This document shows, one piece after another, positions 1-13,732 of a stretch of DNA of 39,359 bases. The stretch spans positions 1-39,359 of the forward strand of contig JAOAPV010000123.1 of the NCBI GenBank assembly GCA_025463055.1, in the 5' to 3' direction. Position 1 is the first letter of the stretch; every line of letters starts with the position of its first letter. Source of the DNA: Candidatus Acidiferrum typicum. GTDB taxonomy: Bacteria > Acidobacteriota > Terriglobia > Acidiferrales > UBA7541. The notes beneath the pieces are model-generated. The model worked only from the letters and a program-made list of their open reading frames with translations, ran no database searches and had not been told where the DNA came from. The translations under genes and the position numbers were made by a program.

Positions 1-973
1 GCATATGCCGGCGGTGGAGTTTGGATTGAAGGCTGCTGACGCAGGGCGGCAGATGCGGTATGTCGATCAGGATCTGACGCTGGTGGCTTGCGGATCGAGC
101 GGTCCAGGGATGAGCACGTACCTGGAATGGGATCGCGCGGTGCTTGAGCAGTGCTATCCGTACGTGGATGCTATTTCGCTGCACCGGTACTTTACAAATG
201 AAGGCGCGGAAACCGGAGGCGACAGCTCCAAATTTCTCGCTTTGAACTTGAGCATGGAGCGGCAGATCGCTGAGGTAGCCTCGGTTTGCGATTTCGTGCG
301 TGGACGGCTGAAGTCGCCAAAAAAACTTTGGCTATCGTTTGACGAGTGGAATGTTTGGTATCGGGCGCGGAGTGGAGCAGCGGTGAATGGGAATCGGCAA
401 GAGGCGCCGCATTTACTCGAGGAAGTGTACAACCTGGAGGACGCACTGCTGGTTGGCGGGTGCATCAATACGCTGCTGCGTTCGGCGGACCGCGTGCGCC
501 TCGGCTGCCTGGCGCAGTTGGTCAACGTGATTGCGCCGCTGATGACGAATGCGAATGGACTGGTGCGGCAGACGATTTTGTATCCATATAGCTGGGCTTT
601 GCGGTATGGCAGGGGCGAGGTGCTGGACCTGGCTGTCCAAAACGGAGCGGTGTATGAGGTTTCGGCTAAGGAGAAAGCGCCTTATCTGGATATCGCTGGA
701 ACTCGCCAACCGGAGAATGGAATCGTATCGCTCTTTATTTTGAACCGTGATCTGGTGAAGCCGCGGCAATTGGAGCTGAATTGGGAAGACAAGCCTGCTA
801 CGAAAATGCTTACTTCGCTGGTGCTGACAGGCGCGGATCTGAAGGCTAGCAACGATTTCGGCGCGCCGAATCGCGTCGTGCCTAAAGAGGCGGAGAAGCC
901 CGTCGTAAGTGGAGACCGCACCATGATTGAGTTACCGCCGAGATCTTATTCCGTGTTTCAGTGGCAGGGTTAG
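1..973 (+). CDS. Alpha-L-arabinofuranosidase, GH51 family (3' part, 5' end outside window)
   Basis: C-terminal part of a GH51 retaining arabinofuranosidase, which releases terminal arabinose from arabinan or arabinoxylan. The frame is open to the left edge (the codon before the first ATG at 5 is His), so ATG 5 is probably internal. Seen: the family stretch LVACGSSG followed by TYLEWDR, then ISLHRYF, then LSFDEWNVWY, whose Glu (codon 344-346) matches the GH51 nucleophile. The acid/base Glu (NE motif) should lie upstream, outside the window. The last third is the beta-sandwich domain, ending in PRSYSVFQW, typical of the family terminus. The aldose 1-epimerase gene starts 22 bp downstream in the same direction, suggesting a sugar-utilisation operon. 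Family call is secure; exact substrate is not. Confidence 0.9.
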   Translation, partial: HMPAVEFGLKAADAGRQMRYVDQDLTLVACGSSGPGMSTYLEWDRAVLEQCYPYVDAISLHRYFTNEGAETGGDSSKFLALNLSMERQIAEVASVCDFVRGRLKSPKKLWLSFDEWNVWYRARSGAAVNGNRQEAPHLLEEVYNLEDALLVGGCINTLLRSADRVRLGCLAQLVNVIAPLMTNANGLVRQTILYPYSWALRYGRGEVLDLAVQNGAVYEVSAKEKAPYLDIAGTRQPENGIVSLFILNRDLVKPRQLELNWEDKPATKMLTSLVLTGADLKASNDFGAPNRVVPKEAEKPVVSGDRTMIELPPRSYSVFQWQG

Positions 974-995
974 GAGCACACGCAGGAGAGGATTA

Positions 996-2159
996 ATGAC
1001 CGCGAAACAAGTAGCGCGCAGGTTGCTCTATGCTTTAATACTCGTCGGCGAATTGACGCTTGCCGGCTCGCTGAGCTCGGAAGGAATGCGAGGAACCATT
1101 CGAAAACAATCGTTTGGCAAGACGAGTAGTGGAGAACCGATTGATCTGTATTCACTATCGAACAAAAAGGGGATGGAAGTTTCGATCACCAATTTTGGGG
1201 CTACTGTGGTCACTCTGCGCGTTCCTGATCGGGATGGGAAACCGGCAGACATTGTTCTGGGGTTTGACACATTGGAAGGCTACGAGAACGGAAAAAGTTA
1301 TTTTGGTGCGACCGTCGGAAGATATGCGAATCGCATTGGGGGCGGGACATTCTCTATTGATGGAAAGATTTACACACTGCCGAAGAATAATGGCAATAAC
1401 ACGCTGCACGGCGGAATCGTGGGATTCAACAGAAAAGTCTGGAAGGCGCGCGAGATCGCCTCAAAGGACGGCGAATCACTGGAGTTGTCGTATTTGAGCG
1501 CCGACGGAGAAGAGGGATTTCCGGGAAATCTTTCGGTCAAGGTTGTGTTCACGGTGCCCGCGGATCGCAACGAATTGAAAATAGACTACGCGGCCACGAC
1601 GGACAAGGACACCGTCCTCAATCTGAGTAATCATTCCTATTTCAATCTTGCGGGCGAAGGCAATGGCGACATCCTGGATCACGTAATAGCGATGCATGCG
1701 AAGCAATTCACGCCGGTGGATAAGACTTTGATCCCCACGGGTGAGTTGCGCGATGTGGCAGGCACGCCGATGGATTTCACGACTGCTACGCCGATTGGAA
1801 AGCGCATCAACGATAACTACGAGCAGCTCGTTTTCGGCAAAGGCTATGACCATAACTGGGTGATCGCGCGCTCTGGCGGCGGGACTGATTTGACGATCGC
1901 GGCGCAAGCGTCTGATCCGAAAAGCGGGCGCACGCTTGAGGTATTAACAACCGAACCGGGAGTCCAGTTCTACAGCGGAAATTTCCTCGACGGCTCCGCT
2001 AAGGGGAAAGGGGGCAAGGCTTACGGTCAACGGGCAGCTTTTTGCTTGGAAACACAGCACTTTCCGGATTCTCCCAACCATCCTAATTTCCCGAGCACAC
2101 TTCTAAAACCGGGCGCGGCTTTTCATTCGGAGACGGTGTTTCGCTTTTCCGCAAAGTAG
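996..2159 (+). CDS. Aldose 1-epimerase (galactose mutarotase), exported
   Basis: Interconverts alpha and beta anomers of aldoses such as galactose, arabinose or glucose. About 387 residues. An N-terminal hydrophobic stretch (residues 9-25) looks like a signal peptide, so the enzyme is likely periplasmic. Seen: FGATV near 68, GRYANRI at 108-114, NNTLHGG with His138, SNHSYFN with His213 (catalytic acid), and CLETQHFPDSPNHPNFP with Glu352 (catalytic base). This set defines the GalM family. The start at 996 is chosen over a longer frame from 927 because AGGAGAG at 984-990 is well placed and the protein then begins just before the signal peptide. It follows the GH51 gene by 22 bp, consistent with processing of sugars released outside the cytoplasm. 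Confidence 0.93.
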   Translation: MTAKQVARRLLYALILVGELTLAGSLSSEGMRGTIRKQSFGKTSSGEPIDLYSLSNKKGMEVSITNFGATVVTLRVPDRDGKPADIVLGFDTLEGYENGKSYFGATVGRYANRIGGGTFSIDGKIYTLPKNNGNNTLHGGIVGFNRKVWKAREIASKDGESLELSYLSADGEEGFPGNLSVKVVFTVPADRNELKIDYAATTDKDTVLNLSNHSYFNLAGEGNGDILDHVIAMHAKQFTPVDKTLIPTGELRDVAGTPMDFTTATPIGKRINDNYEQLVFGKGYDHNWVIARSGGGTDLTIAAQASDPKSGRTLEVLTTEPGVQFYSGNFLDGSAKGKGGKAYGQRAAFCLETQHFPDSPNHPNFPSTLLKPGAAFHSETVFRFSAK

Positions 2160-2193
2160 GCGCAAGCAAAAAACTTAATTGGCGGCAAGAGAG

Positions 2194-2244
2194 TGGCGCG
2201 CCCCGGGGAGATTCGAACTCCCGACCCTCTGCTTAGAATGCAGA
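2194..2244 (-). pseudogene. tRNA-Arg(TCT)-like 3' half, remnant
   Basis: Read on the minus strand, this has a perfect 5-bp anticodon stem (TCTGC/GCAGA) around loop ATTCTAA (anticodon TCT), a 5-nt variable loop, a perfect T-arm (GGGAG-TTCGAAT-CTCCC) and a 3' end finishing in CCA. Nine bases lie between T-stem and CCA instead of eight. Upstream on the minus strand I find only a weak TCAG-CGAT-CTGA hairpin and no 5' acceptor strand complementary to GGGGCGC. It therefore appears to be a detached or decayed 3' half, not a working tRNA. It could be an att-like remnant of an element that once integrated at a tRNA-Arg gene, but no integrase is visible. Confidence 0.6.
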
Positions 2245-2290
2245 TCGTCAGATCGCTGAGCAACCATATTTATTTGCTAGAATTGGAGCA

Positions 2291-2367
2291 GACCCCGTAG
2301 CTCAATCGGATAGAGCGCCAGCCTTCTAAGCTGGATGTTGTCGGTTCAAGTCCGACCGGGGTCGCCA
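2291..2367 (+). tRNA. tRNA-Arg (anticodon TCT)
   Basis: Complete 77-nt cloverleaf: acceptor GACCCCG pairs with CGGGGTC, D-stem GCTC/GAGC, anticodon stem CCAGC/GCTGG around loop CTTCTAA (anticodon TCT, reads AGA/AGG), 5-nt variable loop, T-stem GTCGG/CCGAC with loop TTCAAGT, discriminator G and an encoded CCA at 2365-2367. All stems are perfect. It lies between two tRNA-like fragments on the opposite strand. Confidence 0.97.
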
Positions 2368-2371
2368 TCGT

Positions 2372-2391
2372 TCCCGCTGAGCTACGGCCGC
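2372..2391 (-). pseudogene. tRNA 5'-half-like fragment
   Basis: On the minus strand this reads GCGGCCG, TA, GCTC, AGCGGGA: a plausible 5' acceptor strand, the invariant T8-A9 and the first D-arm strand. The sequence then runs into the antisense of the intact tRNA-Arg, so the rest is missing. The acceptor does not pair well with the 3'-half fragment at 2194-2244, so the two need not come from one gene. At 20 nt a chance match cannot be excluded. Confidence 0.35.
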
Positions 2392-2478
2392 TCCGAGGCT
2401 ACAAATACAGCGTGAGCCGGATGTGCTCGAGGCCTTTGGCTGGCTACGCTCTTTATAGTGGATCGCTAGGAGAACACT

Positions 2479-2709
2479 ATGAAGACACCTCGCAAAGGCC
2501 CTTCGGACTCTGCCGCTGAGAGTTCACCTGCTCGCGGCAAAGGACGAACCGAGAGCTCCCAGCGCAGTAAGAAGAAAGCGACTTCTAGCGACGGCGGTCA
2601 GCGGCCCAACTCAAAAATACAAGACCTCCCTCCAAACGAGAATATTCGTAAGCGCGCCGACGAGGTTTACGGCGACACCGAAATTCCTGAGCGCAAACCG
2701 GGTACTTAG
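2479..2709 (+). CDS. Small hydrophilic basic protein, unknown function
   Basis: A 76-residue protein, rich in Ser, Lys, Arg, Gly and Pro and without hydrophobic stretches. It is probably disordered for residues 1-50, followed by a charged segment NIRKRADEVYG. A good ribosome binding site, AGGAGA at 2468-2473, precedes the ATG, which supports translation. I do not recognise a family. It lies just upstream of the polymerase gene of the end-joining operon. A DNA- or RNA-associated role would fit the composition but is only a guess. Confidence 0.6.
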   Translation: MKTPRKGPSDSAAESSPARGKGRTESSQRSKKKATSSDGGQRPNSKIQDLPPNENIRKRADEVYGDTEIPERKPGT

Positions 2710-2801
2710 TCCAGTTCCGTCGCCCGCGTGGTGCTCTCCGGGCGCGATTGGGGAAAAGAACCTGCCAGCCTGCGGCAGAGTCTAAGAATTGGGCGCACGG
2801 C

Positions 2802-3794
2802 ATGGTTCCAGTTGCAGCGACGAAAGGCCAAACGAGCACACGCTCTCGTCCGCGTGTGAAGAACCGAGCCGCGCCGGTTCAGATCCCTGAAAATGTGACG
2901 GACGCCGAAATCACGGTGGAGGGCGGCACCGTAAAGCTCACCAATCTGCAAAAGATTTTCTGGCCCAAGCTGCGGCTGACCAAGCGCGACCTCTTGCAAT
3001 ATTACGCAGATGTCTCACCTTGGCTGTTGCCACACGTAAGAGACCGCGCCATGGTGATGAAGCGCTATCCCAACGGGATTAACGGTCCATTTTTCTTTAT
3101 GAAGCGCGCGCCCGCGCCGCGGCCTTCTTCGATTCCAATCTGTCCCATCGAGCACGCTTCGGGCAACGTCATCGGCTTCCCGGTGATTCAGCATCTTGCG
3201 TCCTTGCTCTGGCTGGTGAACCTCGGGTGCATCGATCTGAATCCGTGGTACGCGCGATGCGATGACGTTCACCGCCCGGACTATCTACATTTTGATCTCG
3301 ACCCGGTGGAGGGGACTCCATTTCCGCGCGTGCTGGAGACGGCTCTGCTGGTCCGTGATGCGCTGGCCTCGATGGAAATCACCAGCTATGCGAAGACGAC
3401 TGGCTCGCGGGGCGTCCACGTGTATGTTCCCATCGTGCGAGGACCGGATCAAAAGCAAGTCTGGAGCTTCGCCAAGAAATTCTCGAAGGAGCTAGAGAAA
3501 CAGCATCCGAAAATTGTCACCGCAGAGTATCGCGTCGCCAAACGCCCCAAGGGGCGAGTTCTAGTCGACTACAACCAGAACGCGTGGAACCGCACGCTTG
3601 CCTCGGTCTATTCGGTTCGGCCAAAACCGCTGGCGACCGTTTCAACTCCGGTGACCTGGAAAGAAGTCGAACGCGGCGTGCGCATCGAGGACTTCACGAT
3701 GATGAACGTGCCGCAACGACTTAAAAAGCTCGGCGATTTGTGGGAGCCGCTGCTCTGGGAAAAAGAGCGCGTGCGCCTTGAACGCTTCCTATGA
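2802..3794 (+). CDS. ligD: LigD-type polymerase domain protein (non-homologous end joining)
   Basis: Stand-alone primase-polymerase of the archaeo-eukaryotic primase superfamily, as in the LigD polymerase domain. It fills and extends ends during Ku-dependent double-strand break repair. Seen (about 330 residues): LTNLQKIFWP at 46-55, KRYPNGI at 87-93, HFDLDP with metal-binding Asp165 and Asp167, TGSRGVHVYVP with His206, and VLVDYNQN with the third Asp near 256. The phosphoesterase and ligase domains of three-domain LigD are absent here. The frame extends to a TTG at 2748, but ATG 2802 is preferred; neither has a strong ribosome binding site. The stop overlaps the ligase start by 4 bp (ATGA), implying coupled translation. 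No Ku gene is in the window. Confidence 0.93.
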   Translation: MVPVAATKGQTSTRSRPRVKNRAAPVQIPENVTDAEITVEGGTVKLTNLQKIFWPKLRLTKRDLLQYYADVSPWLLPHVRDRAMVMKRYPNGINGPFFFMKRAPAPRPSSIPICPIEHASGNVIGFPVIQHLASLLWLVNLGCIDLNPWYARCDDVHRPDYLHFDLDPVEGTPFPRVLETALLVRDALASMEITSYAKTTGSRGVHVYVPIVRGPDQKQVWSFAKKFSKELEKQHPKIVTAEYRVAKRPKGRVLVDYNQNAWNRTLASVYSVRPKPLATVSTPVTWKEVERGVRIEDFTMMNVPQRLKKLGDLWEPLLWEKERVRLERFL

Positions 3795-4816
3795 GCCTGC
3801 CGATCAGCAAGAAATTTTTGCCAATGGAGGCGCAACCGGCAACCGAGCTTCCTGCCGGCCCCGAGTGGCACTACGAGCCAAAGTGGGACGGATTTCGCTG
3901 CTTGGCATTTCGCGACGACGGGAAAGTCGAACTCGTATCAAAATCACAAAAGCCTCTGACACGCTATTTTCCGGAACTCGTTGCCGAACTGAGCTCTCTC
4001 AAGGCTAAGAACTTCGTGCTGGATGGCGAAATTGTGATTCCCGTCGATGGCAAGCTTTCGTTCGACAATTTGCTGATGCGCATTCACCCTGCGGAAAGCC
4101 GCATTCGAAAGCTAAGCGCAGAAACTCCTTGTGTGTTTATCGTGTTTGATCTGCTTGTGGATGAGTACGGCAAGCCGCTGATCGGGCTGCCGCTTCACGA
4201 GCGCCGGCGTAAGTTGGAAGCTTTCGCGAAAAAGTATTTCAAGAAAGAGGGACTAATCCGCCTGTCGCCGATGACTCGCGATCTTTCGGTTGCGCGCAAA
4301 TGGTTCCACATGGGCGTGGGCCTGGACGGTATTGTCGCTAAGCGCGAGGATCTGCCTTATCAGTCCGGTGAGCGCACTGGCATGCAGAAGATCAAGAAGC
4401 AGCGTACGGCAGACTGCGTGGTGGGAGGTTTTCGTTACCTGGAAAAGAAAAAGCTGGTCGGCTCATTGCTGCTAGGTCTTTACAATGACGAGGGTTTGCT
4501 CGATCACGTCGGCTTCACATCTTCGATTCGTAACGAAGACCGGCAGCAGTTGACGAAGAGATTGGAGAAAATGATTAAGCCTCCCGGCTTCACGGGAAAA
4601 GCTCCCGGCGGCTTGAGTCGCTGGAGCACGAAGCACTCCATGGAATGGCAGCCGCTTGAGCCGAAGCTCGTCGCCGAGGTGCAATTCGATCATTTCACCG
4701 GGGGCCGATTTCGGCACGGCACGAAGTTCCTGCGTTGGCGACCTGAGAAGGACCCACGGCAATGTACGATGGAGCAGGTTCAGCGAGAGGATCGTTCGGC
4801 GCTAGATTTGCTGTGA
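3791..4816 (+). CDS. ATP-dependent DNA ligase (LigC/LigD-type)
   Basis: Seals nicks or ends by adenylating an active-site Lys, partner of the preceding polymerase. Seen (341 residues): motif I YEPKWDGFR with Lys31, motif III FVLDGEIVI with Glu80, motif IIIa VFIVFDLL near 115, motif IV LDGIVAKR at 178-185, motif V KIKKQRTADCVV, and a C-terminal OB-fold ending in FDHFTGGRFRHG and FLRWRPEKDP (motif VI region). Length fits a two-domain ligase with only nucleotidyltransferase and OB folds. Motif IV has Asp instead of the commoner Glu, as I recall for LigC-like enzymes. It overlaps the polymerase gene by 4 bp, and its 3' end overlaps the convergent gene by 37 bp. Confidence 0.93.
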   Translation: MSLPISKKFLPMEAQPATELPAGPEWHYEPKWDGFRCLAFRDDGKVELVSKSQKPLTRYFPELVAELSSLKAKNFVLDGEIVIPVDGKLSFDNLLMRIHPAESRIRKLSAETPCVFIVFDLLVDEYGKPLIGLPLHERRRKLEAFAKKYFKKEGLIRLSPMTRDLSVARKWFHMGVGLDGIVAKREDLPYQSGERTGMQKIKKQRTADCVVGGFRYLEKKKLVGSLLLGLYNDEGLLDHVGFTSSIRNEDRQQLTKRLEKMIKPPGFTGKAPGGLSRWSTKHSMEWQPLEPKLVAEVQFDHFTGGRFRHGTKFLRWRPEKDPRQCTMEQVQREDRSALDLL

Positions 4817-5511
4817 TTTTGCATAGGCCGGCTGACAACTATCTTTGGAAGCTTTGCGGGCCTAGGGCCGTGCCGTTCACCAGTGGCAATTGCCACGTAA
4901 TTTAATTCCACTTTCTCTCGCACGCACCGCAGCATCAGTCCGCCCCGGCTCATGTCGCCGCGCCCGGCGAATTCTGTAGGGAAAACTAGCTTGTCGCCGA
5001 AAATAGCCAGCAGTGGCTCCACATATTTTGGTGTCGCAACGCTGCCTAGTAGTACAACATCGCAATCATTGCCGAGCTGCTTGTGAAGACGGCGTGCGTC
5101 GCGCTCCAGCGGAATTCGGTAGCGTGGTTCAGACGCATCGACGGGCACGGCTGAAATTTCGCAAAGGTCGGACTGAGTAATGAGTGCGTCAGGGGACATT
5201 AGTCCGCCGCAGGCCGTGATGACCAGCACTCCGGGCGCACCATCGGGAGGAGCCGCGAACGTGCTCGCGTATGCCAGCTTGCCGCGAAAATAGAGCCCGC
5301 TGATGAAGCTAAACGCCTCGCCAAGCGCGAGTCCCCCATTCCTTAGCCGGAGCGCCAGCCCGAACATCGCGCCTTCCCGCAGGAGCAATTGTGCGCGCTT
5401 GCCGGCGGCGTTCGCCGGGGAGAGAAGGAACACCCGGTTTGGGCGCAGCGCAGCCCCTCGCTTTGATTTTGGCTTTATCGGATGATCCCGCACCTCTAAA
5501 TAATATCCCAT
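4780..5511 (-). CDS. Conserved protein of unknown function
   Basis: A 243-residue soluble protein beginning MGYYLEVRDHPIKPKSKRG and continuing with RPNRVFLLSPANAAGKRAQ. A glycine-rich central part (FSFISGLYFRGKLAYA) is followed by LVITACGGL and VVLLGSVATPKYVEPLL, which looks like an alpha/beta fold, then FVG-like FAGRGDMSRGGLMLRC near 190-205. I have the impression of a conserved bacterial family with this N-terminus but know no function for it. No signal peptide or membrane segment. It is convergent with the ligase gene and overlaps it by 37 bp. Mixed alpha/beta, Cys-containing motifs and the GRGDMSRGG loop suggest nucleotide or nucleic-acid handling, but that is speculative. Confidence 0.8.
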   Translation of the reverse strand: MGYYLEVRDHPIKPKSKRGAALRPNRVFLLSPANAAGKRAQLLLREGAMFGLALRLRNGGLALGEAFSFISGLYFRGKLAYASTFAAPPDGAPGVLVITACGGLMSPDALITQSDLCEISAVPVDASEPRYRIPLERDARRLHKQLGNDCDVVLLGSVATPKYVEPLLAIFGDKLVFPTEFAGRGDMSRGGLMLRCVREKVELNYVAIATGERHGPRPAKLPKIVVSRPMQNHSKSSAERSSR

Positions 5512-5751
5512 CGCAAAGAGCGGGCCTAACCGACTGAATTTTCCGTTTTCGAGCCGAACTGAAGACGCTTACCGGATGTTCCGCCCGCGCCTGCCGGAAA
5601 AGGTGGATGGAGCTGTGTGCACGCGGAGAGTTCAAGCGCAGACTAACTTCCGGCGCTGGGATCACCATAAAATTTACTGGATGCAACGAAGCAAAGAGTT
5701 CACACTGGGCAGCGCAAAAATTGCAAGCGTAATGCTAAAGCCGATGCCTAG

Positions 5752-6717
5752 ATGACCCGAACCCTTCTGATTGATACCGACACAGCTTCCGACGATGCTG
5801 TGGCGCTCATTATGGCGCTGCGCTCACCCGACGTTCGGGTTGCCGCCATAACCGTGGTCGCCGGTAACGCACCCGTCGCGCAGGCCACCAGCAATGCTTT
5901 ATTCACCGTGGAACTGTGCGGCGCGAATGTCCCGGTTTACTCTGGGGCGGAAGCTCCTCTCCTGCGAAAACTCGTAATCGCGGACTGGTTTCACGGGGCC
6001 GACGGCTTAGGTGATCATGGCTACAAGCCTGCCAAGCGCCGTGCGGAGCCCGGCCACGCCGTCGACGCGCTGATTCAAACCGTGCGCGATAATCCGGGCA
6101 TAGAGATCGTCACTTTGGGTCCGCTCACGAATTTGGCGATGGCCTTGCTCCGCGAGCCGAAACTCGCCGCTTCCGTGAAGCGCTGCGTCGTAATGGGCGG
6201 CGCACCGTGCTGCGTAGGCAACGTGACGCCCGCCGCCGAGTTCAACCTTTGGGTGGACCCCGAGGCTGCGCGCATTGTCTTCCGCTCTGGGCTGCCTCTC
6301 GAAATGGTAGGCTGGCAATTGTGCTGCGGAGGCGCTGCTCTCGATGAGAAAGATGTGGCTCGAGCGCTTGCGCTCAAAAATCCGGTTGCGGAATTTGCGA
6401 TACGTTGCAACAGCGCCGCGTCCGAGGCATTTTTCAAGCAGACGGGGCAAAGAGGCATCTCGTTGCCCGATCCGGTGACGATGGGCATTGCGCTAAATCC
6501 TGCGCTTTGCACTTCATGGAGCGCGCATTATGTCGAAATCGAAGTCTCGAGCGATCTCACCCGCGGTATGACCCTTGTCGATCGCCTGAACGTTGCCACG
6601 GATCCGAGGAATAGGGATGTCTGGGCGAATGCCATCGAACAAGATCGCAAGGTGCATTTGTGCTGGAGCCTTGACATCCCCAAGTGGAAGGAACTCCTAT
6701 TTTCTGCGCTGACCTGA
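5752..6717 (+). CDS. Nucleoside hydrolase (IU-NH family)
   Basis: Hydrolyses the N-glycosidic bond of ribonucleosides to base and ribose, a Ca2+-dependent salvage reaction. About 321 residues, normal for the family. Seen: the signature DTDTASDD (Asp8, Asp10, Asp14, Asp15), HGADGLGD at 81-88, LGPLTNLA at 122-129, and EFNLWVDPEAA at 163-172. The C-terminal metal-binding Asp is present in SLPDPVTM (Asp240). The residue before it, a catalytic His in classical inosine-uridine hydrolases, is Pro239. A different leaving-group activation or substrate is therefore likely. The HIT gene follows 35 bp downstream, so both may be co-transcribed in nucleotide salvage. Confidence 0.92.
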   Translation: MTRTLLIDTDTASDDAVALIMALRSPDVRVAAITVVAGNAPVAQATSNALFTVELCGANVPVYSGAEAPLLRKLVIADWFHGADGLGDHGYKPAKRRAEPGHAVDALIQTVRDNPGIEIVTLGPLTNLAMALLREPKLAASVKRCVVMGGAPCCVGNVTPAAEFNLWVDPEAARIVFRSGLPLEMVGWQLCCGGAALDEKDVARALALKNPVAEFAIRCNSAASEAFFKQTGQRGISLPDPVTMGIALNPALCTSWSAHYVEIEVSSDLTRGMTLVDRLNVATDPRNRDVWANAIEQDRKVHLCWSLDIPKWKELLFSALT

Positions 6718-6752
6718 CGCATACTCTTTTCAAAGTTCTCTTCTGATCGCTC

Positions 6753-7211
6753 ATGAGCCTGCAATTCCGCACATTTGACGAAAACTGCGCGTTCTGTAAA
6801 GTCGTTCGAGACGACGACGGCTTTCGCGTTTTCGAGGATGAGCATACGATTGCATTCCTCGACCATCGCCCTCTCTTTCCGGGCCATTGCCTCCTGATCC
6901 CCAAGGCACATCTCGAAACAATCACGGACTTGCCGGATTCGCTGCTTACGCCACTGTTCGCCAACGTGCGCATGCTTTCGGCCGCCGTCGAACTGGCCAT
7001 GCACGCACAAGGCACCTTCATCGCCGCCAACAATCGTGTCAGCCAGAGCGTTCCGCACTTCCACGTGCACATCGTCCCTCGAACGAAAGGCGACGGCCTA
7101 AAAGGGTTCTTCTGGCCGCGGCGCAAATACAAAAATCCCGAAGAGATCGCTTCGGTAATAAGCGAGCTGCATGCGGCCATTGCTCAGGTTCGACTTCCCA
7201 AAAGCGACTAG
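6753..7211 (+). CDS. HIT family nucleotide hydrolase/transferase
   Basis: Histidine-triad protein of 152 residues. Such enzymes hydrolyse or transfer nucleotide phosphates (for example AMP-lysine, diadenosine polyphosphates). Seen: CAFC at 12-15 (a possible half zinc site as in many bacterial HIT proteins), HRPLFPGHCLLIPK at 38-51, NNRVSQSVPHFHVHIVPR with the triad His102, His104, His106; the middle His is the expected nucleophile. It is downstream of the nucleoside hydrolase and 120 bp upstream of galE. The galE neighbour is suggestive, since GalT belongs to the same superfamily, but the short length and motif fit a Hint/Fhit-type protein rather than GalT. Confidence 0.93.
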   Translation: MSLQFRTFDENCAFCKVVRDDDGFRVFEDEHTIAFLDHRPLFPGHCLLIPKAHLETITDLPDSLLTPLFANVRMLSAAVELAMHAQGTFIAANNRVSQSVPHFHVHIVPRTKGDGLKGFFWPRRKYKNPEEIASVISELHAAIAQVRLPKSD

Positions 7212-7331
7212 CGTCCCAACTCGAGCACCTGATTCCGGCCGCCCGCTGGCGCTCGCGCTCGATTCTTGATGTAATTCCTTGGGCCTTCGGACCGCACAAA
7301 AGTCTGACGTCGTCGCAAAGGGAAAAGCTAA

Positions 7332-8315
7332 ATGGCCGATCGCGTTCTTGTTACTGGAGGAGCCGGATACATTGGCAGCGTCGTGACGTCGCAACTCCTC
7401 GCTAAAGGCTACGAGGTCATCGTTTGCGACAACCTTTCACACGGCACCAAGAAGGCTGTCCCCGCCGGCGCAAAGCTGATCATTGCCGACACCGCGGACC
7501 GAGGCGCGCTGGATAGGATCTTTCAGGAACATCATATTGATGCGGTGATGCACTTCGCGGCATTCATCGAAGCCGGCGAATCCATGCAAGTTCCCGAGAA
7601 GTATTTCCGCAATAATACGGTCAACTCCCTCACATTGCTGGAAGCCATGCTGGCGCACAAAGTGCAGCGCCTCGTGTTTTCTTCGACGGCTGCGCTCTAC
7701 GGCACGCCCGATCGCACGCCTATCGAGGAAACCGCTCCGCTCCATCCCACGAACGCCTACGGCGAATCCAAATTGCTCGTTGAACAAATGCTCGCTTGGT
7801 TTCACCGCATCCACGGTTTGCGTTATGCGTGTCTTCGTTATTTCAACGCTGCGGGAGCCGCCGGCGATCTTGGTGAAGATCATGTGCCGGAGTCGCACTT
7901 AATTCCGCTCACGTTGCAGGTCGCGCTCGGGAAGCGCGAGTACGTATCAATCTTCGGCACCGACTATCCCACGCCCGACGGCACATGCGTCCGCGATTAC
8001 ATTCATGTCAGCGACCTCGCCAGCGCGCACATTCTGGTCCTCGATGCATTGCGTCAGAGCGGCAAGCTTATCTACAATCTCGGTACCGGTCGCGGCTTCA
8101 GCGTTCGCGAAGTCGTGGAAACTGTGCGCCGCGTAACTGGACATCCCATTCCTGCGCGCGAGGTGGCGCGGCGGCCTGGTGATCCGGCGGTTTTAGTGGC
8201 CGGCTCCGAAAGCATCAAGAATGATTTGCATTGGCAACCGCAGTTTCCAGAGGTCGAGTCCATCGTACGCAGCGCATGGGAATGGCGCCGCAAACACCCC
8301 GATGGCTACGCGTGA
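7332..8315 (+). CDS. galE: UDP-glucose 4-epimerase
   Basis: Interconverts UDP-glucose and UDP-galactose with bound NAD; short-chain dehydrogenase fold, cytosolic. Seen (327 residues): Rossmann motif GGAGYIG at 9-15, HFAAFIEAGESM near 74-85, SSTAALYG with Ser118/Thr119, catalytic YGESK with Tyr143 and Lys147, RYFNAAGA near 173, and the C-terminal YNLGTGRGFSVREV. Length and motifs match GalE closely. It supplies UDP-galactose for surface polysaccharide or feeds galactose into central metabolism, which would fit the mutarotase upstream in the window. The isomerase pair begins about 50 bp downstream on the same strand. Confidence 0.95.
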   Translation: MADRVLVTGGAGYIGSVVTSQLLAKGYEVIVCDNLSHGTKKAVPAGAKLIIADTADRGALDRIFQEHHIDAVMHFAAFIEAGESMQVPEKYFRNNTVNSLTLLEAMLAHKVQRLVFSSTAALYGTPDRTPIEETAPLHPTNAYGESKLLVEQMLAWFHRIHGLRYACLRYFNAAGAAGDLGEDHVPESHLIPLTLQVALGKREYVSIFGTDYPTPDGTCVRDYIHVSDLASAHILVLDALRQSGKLIYNLGTGRGFSVREVVETVRRVTGHPIPAREVARRPGDPAVLVAGSESIKNDLHWQPQFPEVESIVRSAWEWRRKHPDGYA

Positions 8316-8364
8316 TGTGTGACGTGCGCCCTCGGCGAAACGTCCAATGGATAAAGGAGAACGC

Positions 8365-9315
8365 ATGACCCATCGCATGCCGCGACGCGAATTCCTCGGC
8401 GCAATGAGCGCGTTGGCAGCCGCCTCCGCATTTCCTTGCAAGACTCTTCTGGCACGCGACCTCCTCTATCCGCCCATGGACCTCTCGCACTTCGACACCC
8501 CCATAACTCCCGCGCCTTCCGAGATTCATTTCGGCTATGCGTCGATCACCTGGGGCGGCAATGATCGCCAAGCAATAGCGGACATCGCCGCCGTCGGATT
8601 TCGCGGGATACAACTGCGCTCCAACAGCATCGCGGAGTTCGGCGCTCCCGCAGCCGTGCGCGATCTGCTTAGCCAGCACGAGTTGAAATTTGTGGCGCTT
8701 TCCAGCGGCGACCTGCTCAGTGACTCTGCTTCCTCGAAAAAGAGCATCGCGGAGCACACCGCTCACGCCAAATTCTTGCGTGACGCCGGCGGCTTGTACC
8801 TCCAAATTTTGGACAATCCCCCAAAGGGCCGCATGGCAGTTCCTGATGACTACAAACAGTTGGGCAAAACCCTGACGGAACTTGGCAAACGCACGGCTGA
8901 TCTTGGAATCCCTCTCGGATATCACAATCACGTGGGCTCATTAAGCGAGCGACCTGAAGGACTCGATCAAATCATGAGCGCCTCTGATCCGCGTTACGTC
9001 AAATTGGAACTAGATGTTGCGCATTATTTCCAGGGCGGAGGGGACCCTGTGAAAGCCATAGAGAAATATGGTGATCGACTGCTCTTCTTGCATATCAAAG
9101 ATGTCGAGCGCGTCTCAAAGAGTGTCTATCGCTTCGTCGAGCTTGGGCGCGGCTTGGTGGACGTCCCGGCGGTTTTTGAGTCTCTGAGCAAAGTGGGTTT
9201 CCGCGGCTGGGCGGTCGTCGAGCTCGATGAAGTTCCTGAAAATGCTCACAGCCCTAAGGAAGCCGCTGCGGCTAACAAGGAATATCTTCAGGAAAAGCTG
9301 GGACTAACCGTATGA
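8365..9315 (+). CDS. Tat-exported sugar phosphate isomerase/epimerase-like TIM barrel
   Basis: Xylose-isomerase-like TIM-barrel protein (AP endonuclease 2 superfamily), about 316 residues. The N-terminus RREFLGAMSALAAASA is a twin-arginine signal, so it is folded in the cytoplasm with its metal and then exported. Barrel motifs seen: FGYASITWGGND, GYHNHVGSLSER (metal-ligand His), VKLELDVAHYFQGG, LLFLHIKDVER, and AVVELDEVP near the end. The start at 8365 is preferred over ATG 8347 because AAAGGAGA (8353-8360) sits just upstream and the Tat motif is then close to the N-terminus. It overlaps the next gene by 4 bp (ATGA). Substrate unknown; inositol or keto-sugar isomerisation is typical of the family. 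Confidence 0.9.
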   Translation: MTHRMPRREFLGAMSALAAASAFPCKTLLARDLLYPPMDLSHFDTPITPAPSEIHFGYASITWGGNDRQAIADIAAVGFRGIQLRSNSIAEFGAPAAVRDLLSQHELKFVALSSGDLLSDSASSKKSIAEHTAHAKFLRDAGGLYLQILDNPPKGRMAVPDDYKQLGKTLTELGKRTADLGIPLGYHNHVGSLSERPEGLDQIMSASDPRYVKLELDVAHYFQGGGDPVKAIEKYGDRLLFLHIKDVERVSKSVYRFVELGRGLVDVPAVFESLSKVGFRGWAVVELDEVPENAHSPKEAAAANKEYLQEKLGLTV

Positions 9316-10193
9316 ACTCGCGATTCCGGATTACGGTCATCACCGATGAGCTTGGACAAGATTTTGGCCGCGCTTGCGAAGTCGCGTCACGCGAATTTGG
9401 TATGGACTGGGTCGAGCTCCGCGGCATGTGGAACAAAAATATTCTCAAGCTCGATGCTACGGAAGTCGCCGAAGCCCGCCGTATTCTCGAAAAATACAAG
9501 CTTCGCGTGACCGATATCGCCAGCCCGCTCTTTAAGGTGGACTGGCCCGGAGCGCCCAAATCAAAGTTTAGCCCCACGGGCGCGCAATTTAACGCCGACT
9601 TCACGTACGACCAGCAAGGCGAGGTTCTTGAGCGTAGCATCGCCCTGGCGAAGGCGTTTCACACGGACCGGGTACGTTGTTTTGATTTCTGGCGCCTCGA
9701 AGATCCCGCACCGTACCGCGCCGCAATGAACGCGAGATTGCTCGAAGCGGCAAACATGGCAGGCAAGCAGGGAATCATCCTGATCATCGAAAACGAATTC
9801 GCATGCAACACCGCTACCGGCGCCGAAGCCGCGCAAACTCTAGCCGCCGTGCAGTCACCTTCTTTCATGCTCAATTGGGATCCCGGCAATGCCGCGGGAC
9901 GCGGCGAAACGCCTTACCCTGGCGGATACAATCTCCTGCCGAAAGATCGCATTGGTCATTGCCACTGTAAGGACATTGCCAAAATCACCGATGCTAAAGA
10001 GCCGCCTTGGGCAGCCATGGGCAGAGGCGCGATTGATTGGGTGGGCCAATTCACTGCGCTAAAGCGCGAAGGCTATCACTACGCCGTGAGCCTGGAAACC
10101 CACTGGCGCGGCGCCGGCACTCCAGAAGAATCGTCTCGTCAGAGCTGGGCCGGAATGAAGGAACAGTTGCGCAAAGCCGGCGCTCTCACTTAG
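9312..10193 (+). CDS. Sugar phosphate isomerase/epimerase-like TIM barrel, cytosolic
   Basis: Second xylose-isomerase-like TIM barrel, 293 residues, without a signal peptide. Seen: VITDELGQDF near the N-terminus, WVELRGMWNKN, IILIIENEFACNTATG (metal Glu), FMLNWDPGNAAGRGE, IGHCHCKDIAK and YAVSLETHWRG. These correspond to the metal-binding strands of the superfamily. Its ATG lies within the stop region of the previous gene, so the pair is translated in a coupled way. One exported and one cytosolic member in one operon suggests successive steps on one sugar on either side of the membrane. The proteins are not close paralogues by eye. Substrate not identifiable. Confidence 0.9.
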   Translation: MNSRFRITVITDELGQDFGRACEVASREFGMDWVELRGMWNKNILKLDATEVAEARRILEKYKLRVTDIASPLFKVDWPGAPKSKFSPTGAQFNADFTYDQQGEVLERSIALAKAFHTDRVRCFDFWRLEDPAPYRAAMNARLLEAANMAGKQGIILIIENEFACNTATGAEAAQTLAAVQSPSFMLNWDPGNAAGRGETPYPGGYNLLPKDRIGHCHCKDIAKITDAKEPPWAAMGRGAIDWVGQFTALKREGYHYAVSLETHWRGAGTPEESSRQSWAGMKEQLRKAGALT

Positions 10194-11062: not shown

Positions 11063-11644
11063 GTGAACCCGCTGCAAACCCTTGGTCTGGCCCTCGGTGC
11101 CGGATTCTCTTCCGGCCTCAATCTCTACGCCACGATCGCGACCCTTGGCCTTCTCCAGCGCTTTGGCGTCATCCACTTGCCGGCCTCGATGCAGGTGCTC
11201 TCGCATCCCTGGGTTCTCGGGATCGCGCTCGCCCTTTACGCCATTGAATTTCTCGCCGACAAAATTCCTTACGTCGATACCGTTTGGGATGCCGTCCACA
11301 CATTAATCCGTCCGCCCGCCGCAGCTCTTCTTGCGTATAGCGCCACGGTTGCCGCTCCGCCGGAATGGCGTTGGAGCGCCGCGCTGCTAGCCGGTGGCGT
11401 GGCGCTGACCTCGCACAGCACGAAAGCGAGCACGCGCGCCGCCGTTAATACCAGTCCCGAACCTTTCAGTAATTGGCTGCTCAGCTTAGGAGAAGACGCG
11501 CTGGCAGTTTGGCTCACCTGGATGGCTACGGTCCATCCCACCGCAACGATCGTAGTCGTGGCGTTTCTAATCGCGCTTGCCGGATTCCTTCTGTTCCATC
11601 TCTTTCGATTCTTGCGCCGTTCCCTGCAGCGGCTGTTTGCTTAA
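11063..11644 (+). CDS. DUF4126 family integral membrane protein
   Basis: A 193-residue protein with about five hydrophobic segments, starting at GTG 11063 (MNPLQTLGLALGAGFSSGLN). The pattern GLNLYATIATLGL, then FLADKIPYVDTVWDAVHT, then THSTKASTRAAVNTSPEPFSNW is what I recall for DUF4126 proteins. It ends with a basic C-terminus (FRFLRRSLQRLF). Function of the family is unknown; it lies in the cytoplasmic membrane. It converges on the S9 peptidase gene with 27 bp between stops. Confidence 0.85.
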   Translation: MNPLQTLGLALGAGFSSGLNLYATIATLGLLQRFGVIHLPASMQVLSHPWVLGIALALYAIEFLADKIPYVDTVWDAVHTLIRPPAAALLAYSATVAAPPEWRWSAALLAGGVALTSHSTKASTRAAVNTSPEPFSNWLLSLGEDALAVWLTWMATVHPTATIVVVAFLIALAGFLLFHLFRFLRRSLQRLFA

Positions 11645-11671
11645 CATCCGCCGAGCGCTCCGATTGGCGCA

Positions 11672-13732
11672 CTACTTCATCCATTGCGCGAGCCAATCAA
11701 AAAACGTCTTGTACCAAAACTGCGAATTCTGCGGCTTCAATACCCAGTGCCCCTCATCCGGAAATATCATCAACTTCGAAGGCACACCCTGCCTCTGCAG
11801 CGTGTTAAAAAATTCCAGTGACTGCGTGTACGGCACGCGATAGTCGCGCTCACCGCAAATCACGAGGGTCGGTGTCTTGAATTTTCCCAACTCCGCCGCA
11901 TACGTCAGCGGCCCCCACTTTCGATAACTCTCCGGATTCGTCCACGGCGTGCCCTGCATGTCGTGCTCTTCGAACCACAGCTCTTCCGTCGCATACATCG
12001 AAAATTTGTCATAAATGCCCGCATGGCTGATGATTGCCTTGAAGCGCCCGCTATGCGTGGCGATCCAATCCGCCAGATACCCGCCGTAAGAGCCGCCCGC
12101 CGCCGCCATCCGTGATCCGTCAATGAACTTGAATTTCGCCAGCGCCGAGTCCACGCCCGTCATCACGTCTACATACGCCTTGCCGCCCCAATCGTTCGTA
12201 ATTTCGTCCGTGAATTTCTGCCCGTATCCGGTTGATCCACGTCGATTGATCATCAGCGTCACATACCCACCCGCCGTGAATACCTGCGCGTTCCACCGGT
12301 ATCCCCACGCGTTCGCCCACATCGTCTGTGGTCCCCCATGCAGCAGCACGAGCAGCGGATACTTCTTCGATGCATCAAAATGCGGCGGACGAATCATCAT
12401 CGCCTGCACGCGCGTACCGTCCTTGCTTTCGAACCAAAACGTTTCGGGGGCATTCATCTCCAATTTCGCCAGGACCGCTTCATTTTGGTGAGTAAGCTGC
12501 CGCGCACCGGAGCCGTCAGCGCCCGCAACAAACACCTCCGCCGGCATCGTCAAACTTGTGCGCTCAAATGCCAGCGTCTTTCCGTCGCCGCTGATCGTCA
12601 AACCCGTGTTGAAGCTGTCCGCGACGACCTTCTTCGGTTCCGCTCCCGCTCGCGCCGCCATCGCATACACCGGTTGCAGCGTCTCGTTCTCCGCCGTAAA
12701 GAAAATTGTCTTGCTGTCGGCGGACCAATGCAATTCGTTCGCGCTGCGGTCAAATCCCTCGGAAAGATTCTCGATTTTCCCACTCTGCCGGTCGTACAAC
12801 ATCACCCGCCAACGATCTGACTCGTATCCCGGCGTCAGTTGCGCGTGATACGCGATTAACCGACCATCCGGCGAGTACGCCGGATTGCCATCGAAGGCAG
12901 GATTTGTAGTGATCTTTTTCGCGTCGCCTCCCGTGACCGGCACCAGAAATAAATCCCCGTTTGTGCTGATCGCTTCCACTTTGTCCGTCACCGCCGTGAA
13001 ACAGATCTCCTTCGAATCCGGCGAAAAATTAATGTCATCAGGCCCGCCCCTCTGGTCCGGAGGCACGTCGTAATTTGCCCCCGCATTCAAATCCCGCGCC
13101 TCGCCGCTGCCGTCCGCGGGCTCCACAAACAAATGGCTGCGCTTGCCTTCAAACCAATGGTCCCAATGGCGGTACAAAAGCTGCTCGTACACGCGCGCCT
13201 TTACCTTGTTTTTCTCCTTCTCCTCGTCGCGCTTCTTGTTGCACGCATCGTCTTTGCAATCCGGGTAGACCGATGATGTAAACGCAATGGCCTTTCCATC
13301 CGGCGACCACTTCACCAAATCCGCTCCGGTAGAGAGATGCGTCACCGCATGCGCTTCGCCGCCCTCCATCGACAGCACATACACCTGCGAAGTTCCCTCG
13401 CGTGACGACAAAAACGCCAGCGTCTTCCCGTCCGGCGACCACGTCGGCGAAGAATCATGCCCGCTCTGCGTAAGTTGCATCGCCTCTCCGCCGCTCGTGG
13501 AAACAATCCAGATATTGCTGGCGTTGCGATTTGCGCTCATGTCCGGAGTGGCCACAACGTACGCCACCCATTTTCCGTCTGGCGAGATCTTCGGATCGCC
13601 CACGCGACGCATCTGGATCATGTCGTCAAACGTGATCGCATGTTTTGCCGAATCCTGCGCGAGCGTAGTCGCAGCACTACAGAAAACGAGCACCGCCGCC
13701 GCACTTGCGCTTCGCAGAGCTGTCCTAATCAT
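11672..13732 (-). CDS. Secreted S9 family peptidase (prolyl oligopeptidase / acylaminoacyl peptidase type)
   Basis: Serine peptidase that cleaves short peptides. About 686 residues: signal peptide (residues 1-24, ending AAATTLAQ-like), an N-terminal seven-bladed propeller with WD40-like repeats such as DPKISPDGKWVAYV, HDSSPTWSPDGKTLAFLS and NPAYSPDGRLIAY, and a C-terminal alpha/beta hydrolase domain. The catalytic triad is visible: GGSYGGYL with Ser548, CGERDYRVPY with Asp630, and DEGHWVLK with His662. The start at 13732 is chosen over 13804 because a GAGGGG ribosome binding site precedes it and the signal peptide then begins the protein. The amino-acid permease gene lies 68 bp upstream on the same strand, suggesting peptide breakdown plus uptake. 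Confidence 0.94.
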   Translation of the reverse strand: MIRTALRSASAAAVLVFCSAATTLAQDSAKHAITFDDMIQMRRVGDPKISPDGKWVAYVVATPDMSANRNASNIWIVSTSGGEAMQLTQSGHDSSPTWSPDGKTLAFLSSREGTSQVYVLSMEGGEAHAVTHLSTGADLVKWSPDGKAIAFTSSVYPDCKDDACNKKRDEEKEKNKVKARVYEQLLYRHWDHWFEGKRSHLFVEPADGSGEARDLNAGANYDVPPDQRGGPDDINFSPDSKEICFTAVTDKVEAISTNGDLFLVPVTGGDAKKITTNPAFDGNPAYSPDGRLIAYHAQLTPGYESDRWRVMLYDRQSGKIENLSEGFDRSANELHWSADSKTIFFTAENETLQPVYAMAARAGAEPKKVVADSFNTGLTISGDGKTLAFERTSLTMPAEVFVAGADGSGARQLTHQNEAVLAKLEMNAPETFWFESKDGTRVQAMMIRPPHFDASKKYPLLVLLHGGPQTMWANAWGYRWNAQVFTAGGYVTLMINRRGSTGYGQKFTDEITNDWGGKAYVDVMTGVDSALAKFKFIDGSRMAAAGGSYGGYLADWIATHSGRFKAIISHAGIYDKFSMYATEELWFEEHDMQGTPWTNPESYRKWGPLTYAAELGKFKTPTLVICGERDYRVPYTQSLEFFNTLQRQGVPSKLMIFPDEGHWVLKPQNSQFWYKTFFDWLAQWMK

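Follow-up and report, generated by a model that had tools for sequence, protein, structure and literature searches.

A tRNA-Arg(UCU) gene probably replaced in place by another of the same specificity in a draft genome of Candidatus Acidiferrum typicum

In Candidatus Acidiferrum typicum, a tRNA-Arg(UCU) gene was probably replaced in place by another tRNA gene of the same specificity, a case seen once, in a single draft genome. From the arrangement described below we infer that a single insertion event placed a 110-bp stretch, bearing a tRNA-Arg(UCU) gene of another type that probably came from another lineage, in the D arm of the resident gene, on the opposite strand and with an 11-bp duplication. 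The two minus-strand pieces that now flank the intact gene would be the two parts of that one resident gene, which was of the type usual in the genus. The inserted gene would afterwards have taken over the reading of AGA, and this take-over would have left the old gene free to decay.

The intact gene and the pieces on either side of it

The DNA analysed (the window, 39,359 nucleotides) is the complete contig C38 of the draft genome G000 (5.33 Mb, 98.9% complete, 146 contigs). ARAGORN called a single tRNA in the window, a tRNA-Arg(TCT) at 2291-2367 on the plus strand, which has a full cloverleaf, the TCT anticodon and CCA and which scored 72.6 bits against the Rfam tRNA family, confirming the complete gene that the first-pass annotation had proposed at this place. 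Comparison within the genus showed that it is not of the usual type: the tRNA-Arg(UCU) of the genus starts with GCGCCCG and ends with CGGGCGCGCCA, and the acceptor, D loop, anticodon stem, variable loop and T arm of the intact gene all differ from it. The gene lies in a 110-bp stretch (2265-2374, plus strand) delimited by two copies of a repeat, with 26 bp upstream and 7 bp downstream of it. Among the listed matches of G000 to 2255-2410, which were the query locus itself and a tRNA-Arg(TCG) gene, there was no second copy of this stretch. A TAGAAT motif was spotted by eye upstream of the intact gene (2278-2283), and a simple consensus scan of 2150-2500 gave no sigma-70-like site for either tRNA gene. 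A Plastid-ycf2 match in Rfam (30.1 bits, cut-off 65.7) was dropped, being the antisense of the intact tRNA.

The left piece, at 2194-2253 on the minus strand, is the 3' part of a decayed gene and comprises the end of the D arm, the anticodon arm, the T arm, the 3' strand of the acceptor with an inserted G, and CCA. Within 2194-2244 the anticodon stem (TCTGC/GCAGA), the T stem (GGGAG/CTCCC), the TCT anticodon, the CCA end and the extra acceptor base were all found as first described, and this sequence departs from the tRNA-Arg(UCU) of the genus at only two points, a substitution in the anticodon loop and the G inserted in the acceptor. The match extends through the anticodon stem (2239-2244), and the piece may reach 2264; the tRNA-likeness of 2245-2290 by itself was not significant, its score being equalled in 398 of 5000 shuffles. 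When the genome was searched with 2186-2270, it returned the query itself and a tRNA-Arg(TCG) with 86% identity; six further matches were weak (E >=0.06). A complete tRNA fold on the minus strand was looked for and none was found, as ARAGORN gave no call there and the Rfam tRNA match at 2198-2255 reached 23.5 bits, below the gathering score of 29.

The right piece, at 2375-2391 on the minus strand, corresponds to the 5' end of a gene of the genus type, with one mismatch in 15 positions. When the region 2368-2480 was aligned with the 5' end of a tRNA-Arg(UCU) of the genus, one having the CCGGAAAGA D loop, the score was 33, which none of 5000 Markov-1 shuffles reached, showing that the 5'-half-like piece noted earlier is real. 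Against the two genus UCU types that were tried it scored 25 and 33, and against the 41 tRNA sequences of G000 its best scores were 30 (tRNA-Arg(TCG)) and 27 (a tRNA-Met). Both minus-strand pieces belong to the genus type with the TCTGCCTTCTAAGCAG arm, which is common to 20 of the 22 genus relatives, out of 35, that gave a perfect tRNA-Arg(UCU) pattern match; a looser pattern added G006, and the 12 relatives with no complete match include several incomplete assemblies.

The repeat finder placed the two 11-bp copies at 2254-2264 (GTTGCTCAGCG) and 2375-2385 (GTAGCTCAGCG), both read on the minus strand. They are identical at 10 of 11 positions, and the motif CGCTGAGC(A/T)AC was the only direct repeat reported in 2150-2480. 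This could be a target-site duplication, yet it is a D-arm sequence common to tRNAs, and the right piece resembles the gene with the CCGGAAAGA D loop beyond the repeat as well, so a clean duplication is uncertain. Terminal inverted repeats, which would be expected of a transposon, were absent (no pairs of >=8 nt in 2150-2480). When the pieces were joined at the repeat, the product measured exactly 77 nt, the usual length, and in gapped alignment it shared 70 identities with one genus type and 68 with another. The first 32 nt of the joined product scored 12, and none of 20000 shuffles scored equally; the left piece alone scored 0, and the right piece run on into the insert also scored 12, so that this shuffle test is no proof of the join. 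What speaks for a single gene is the repeat, together with the order and orientation of the pieces and the exact length.

The old gene looks dead, to judge from its sequence: the acceptor carries an extra base, the D arm is ruined and the joined product was not accepted as a tRNA by ARAGORN. Homology to a functional gene was thus found together with disabling changes, the combination by which a decayed tRNA gene is recognised. Of the three readings of the fragments offered at first, the data support the one in which the intact gene disrupted a second tRNA-Arg gene and the latter decayed, through the match to the genus type, the repeat, the joined length and the relative G022 described below. 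Nothing was found in favour of a tRNA-derived regulatory RNA, as no Rfam family but tRNA was over its cut-off in 1-6000; the att-site scar is not supported for this site, on evidence given with the integrative elements below.

The locus, its relatives and the reading of AGA

The tRNA site lies 2.2 kb from the end of the contig. On its left are a gene with an arabinofuranosidase C-terminal domain (5-973) and an aldose epimerase gene, here named galM (978-2159). On its right, between the 5' end of the old tRNA gene and a nucleoside hydrolase gene (5752-6717), there is a block made of a LigD-type primase-polymerase (2802-3794) and an ATP-dependent DNA ligase (3791-4816), followed by a minus-strand ORF without family (4780-5511). 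The ligase matched the DNA ligase family only, no phage family was found for the 76-aa, LigD-polymerase and 4780-5511 ORFs, and no integrase was present among the 20 window proteins scanned with Pfam, all of them inside 5-26668. A clear step in GC content was absent at the ligase block, the polymerase of which is 76% identical to one in G002. The LigD-type polymerase and the ATP-dependent ligase (NCBIfam PRK08224) at 2802-4816 are stand-alone genes, and a frame of 920 aa that matches LigD polymerase occurs on contig C139 of the same genome. An old promoter or 5' half was sought at 5400-5680 and none was located.

Two contigs of one relative, G022, suggest that the order galM, tRNA, hydrolase is likely ancestral. 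One of them carries galM (82% amino acid identity) and ends 271 bp beyond it, where a 12-nt 3' tip of a tRNA, TGGCGCGCCCGG, was recognised by eye. On the other, which matches the window at 5671-10184 and 11063-13699, a tRNA 5' half is found roughly 290 bp away from the nucleoside hydrolase gene (86% amino acid identity), in the divergent orientation seen in the window. The promoter region of G022 showed no similarity to the window apart from the tRNA itself.

All 48 tRNA matches in G000 were inspected, those of the window directly, from a search that scored 150 of 170 candidates, and they gave 41 distinct ARAGORN sequences, one of them with TCT. Neither of two pattern searches nor ARAGORN on the tRNA matches disclosed another UCU gene in this incomplete assembly. 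The 41 sequences are without some expected members (there is no Tyr, and Thr appears only as CGT), so an old-type copy may lie inside an assembly gap. One odd tRNA-like gene with a 6-nt anticodon loop was seen at G000:C60:29293-29365, and ARAGORN offers either Arg or Glu for it.

AGA is rare in 13 genes of the window, where it accounts for 7 of 5663 codons. A cell that lost its sole UCU tRNA would be expected to die, and for this reason an insert of the same specificity is what would be expected under selection. The anticodon shared by the fragment and the intact gene, called suggestive at first, can be understood in this way, since DNA that interrupts an essential tRNA gene present in one copy could persist only by providing that function itself. 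A bolder reading is that a bare tRNA gene can move as a small self-rescuing insertion, which kills a single-copy gene of the same specificity and replaces it at one stroke, any insert unable to make good the loss being eliminated, and that this locus has caught such a swap; we consider this extension of the replacement reading quite unlikely. The 110 bp may have arrived by end-joining of captured DNA.

Origin of the inserted gene and other explanations

The best matches of the intact gene (65 of 74 positions) were to one Latescibacterota and one Rhodospirillales record, found with a pattern that fixes its acceptor and so preselects such genes, and the next ones (62-64 of 74) were to other records and a viral contig. 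The TCTGC-type UCU genes of the genus reached at most 57 of 74 among the best 45 matches. Two phage matches had 84.4 and 86.7% identity over 75-77 nt. Within the phylum, where no preselection was applied and two candidates were scored in each of 396 genomes (G000 included), the top match had 82% identity over 74 nt and a shorter one 88% over 58 nt. A near-identical copy was not found in these 396 genomes with two candidates scored each, nor in phages (best 86.7%), nor among eight genome-contig stretches from the pattern scan, a set which may exclude G000 and very near genomes. The intact gene is likely of foreign origin on these comparisons; the preselection by pattern and the moderate matches in the phylum make the case for it weaker than the scores imply. 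Three genus members have a tRNA-Arg(TCG) with the same GACCCCG acceptor, which agrees with the intact gene at 58-59 of 74 positions, so the latter could also derive from such a gene by a change of anticodon.

The gene may instead be what is left of an integrative element. In this view a phage, or an island, with its own tRNA-Arg(UCU) would have integrated here and lost everything but the needed tRNA, and the repeat would be its att core. At least 120 stretches of viral contigs match the tRNA-Arg(UCU) pattern, 132 phage records match at E 1e-5, and the gene has the look of an integration hot spot in the genus: 21 loci preselected by earlier matches yielded 17 lone 5' halves, which come from 13 genomes. 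This count of halves includes three (L243, L245 and L250) that ARAGORN calls as tRNA-Arg(tct) of 86 nt with no CCA. In G032 an ORF of the Phage_integrase family directly precedes an intact copy of tRNA-Arg(UCU), an arrangement that points to elements which supply the tRNA gene with a fresh promoter and 5' half. According to the accessible text of a review (PMC8371274), such elements are seldom met in bacteria, and tRNA-Arg(TCT) is among the most used integration sites in archaea. However, the breaks in the relatives lie in the anticodon loop or a few bases from it, whereas the break here lies in the D arm; this difference, the lack of a second tRNA end in the search of the assembly and the Pfam scan of the 20 window proteins, with no integrase among them, also told against the att-site scar of the first-pass annotation. 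The reduction of an element to exactly one tRNA gene would moreover be extreme, the three ORFs with no phage family give it no help, and no obvious integrase was seen by eye among the ORFs of >=200 aa at the element ends of L232 and L243. We judge an integrative-element fossil unlikely.

The anticodon-loop breaks of the genus include L249:6814-12321 (G032:C11), L247 (G017:C349) and L232 (G023:C7). In G023, ARAGORN found no replacement tRNA in the stretches retrieved from what is presumed to be an island. A further decayed 3' remnant of a tRNA-Arg(UCU) of the genus, its anticodon loop altered, occurs in G025 (L009, G025:C12:6546-6609), a genome in which two patterns gave no intact UCU gene. At L240:12845 (G029:C162:30847) a tRNA-Arg(UCU) extends as far as the T loop and then gives way to other DNA.

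A different explanation is that three unrelated pieces came to adjoin, namely the old 3' half, the intact tRNA and a 5' piece of some other tRNA-Arg, in a region much visited by mobile elements. The frequency of lone 5' halves in the genus and the scores of the right piece with tRNA-Arg(TCG) and tRNA-Met are in keeping with it, but the pieces have the right order and orientation and join to exactly 77 nt at the only direct repeat reported, which makes a chance assemblage highly doubtful. It is very improbable that the assembler set the intact tRNA inside the old gene by mistake, as could happen in a draft of 146 contigs at a site so near a contig end, because the left and distal right flanks match two G022 contigs that bear, respectively, the 3' and the 5' end of one and the same tRNA gene.

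Comparison with known systems

If the replacement reading is true, the locus is a snapshot of a needed tRNA gene being exchanged at the same spot, and it suggests that insertions into such genes survive by bringing the missing function. A genus in which tRNA-Arg(UCU) is repeatedly split would then be a good setting for the turnover of tRNA genes. Displaced tRNA fragments, the disruption of a tRNA gene with another version present (PMC3293823, as far as its accessible text goes) and phage tRNAs are already known. Searches of a literature with few subscription journals brought up no case in which what remains of a tRNA gene encloses, on the opposite strand, a complete gene for the same isoacceptor.

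The tRNA-gene islands catalogued by Islander, in the part of the source available (PMC4383910), resemble our case in having an intact tRNA beside fragments of the same identity and in the use of a hot-spot gene of the genus. In contrast, no island or integrase was found here, the fragments are on the opposite strand and on both sides, and the break is in the D arm. In the tRNA-Thr(GGU) of Caldiarchaeum, as described in the accessible portion of PMC3293823, the gene is likewise disrupted, its 5' fragment is kept and a different version of the tRNA is present. The disrupting DNA there is an element of 1.8 kb that has a recombinase, and introns are involved, whereas the insert here is 110 bp long and brings a bare tRNA gene. 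Finally, phage-borne or horizontally acquired tRNA-Arg(UCU) genes are comparable in that the intact gene is near phage genes and genes of other phyla in sequence, but unlike them it is lodged within the gene that it has apparently superseded.
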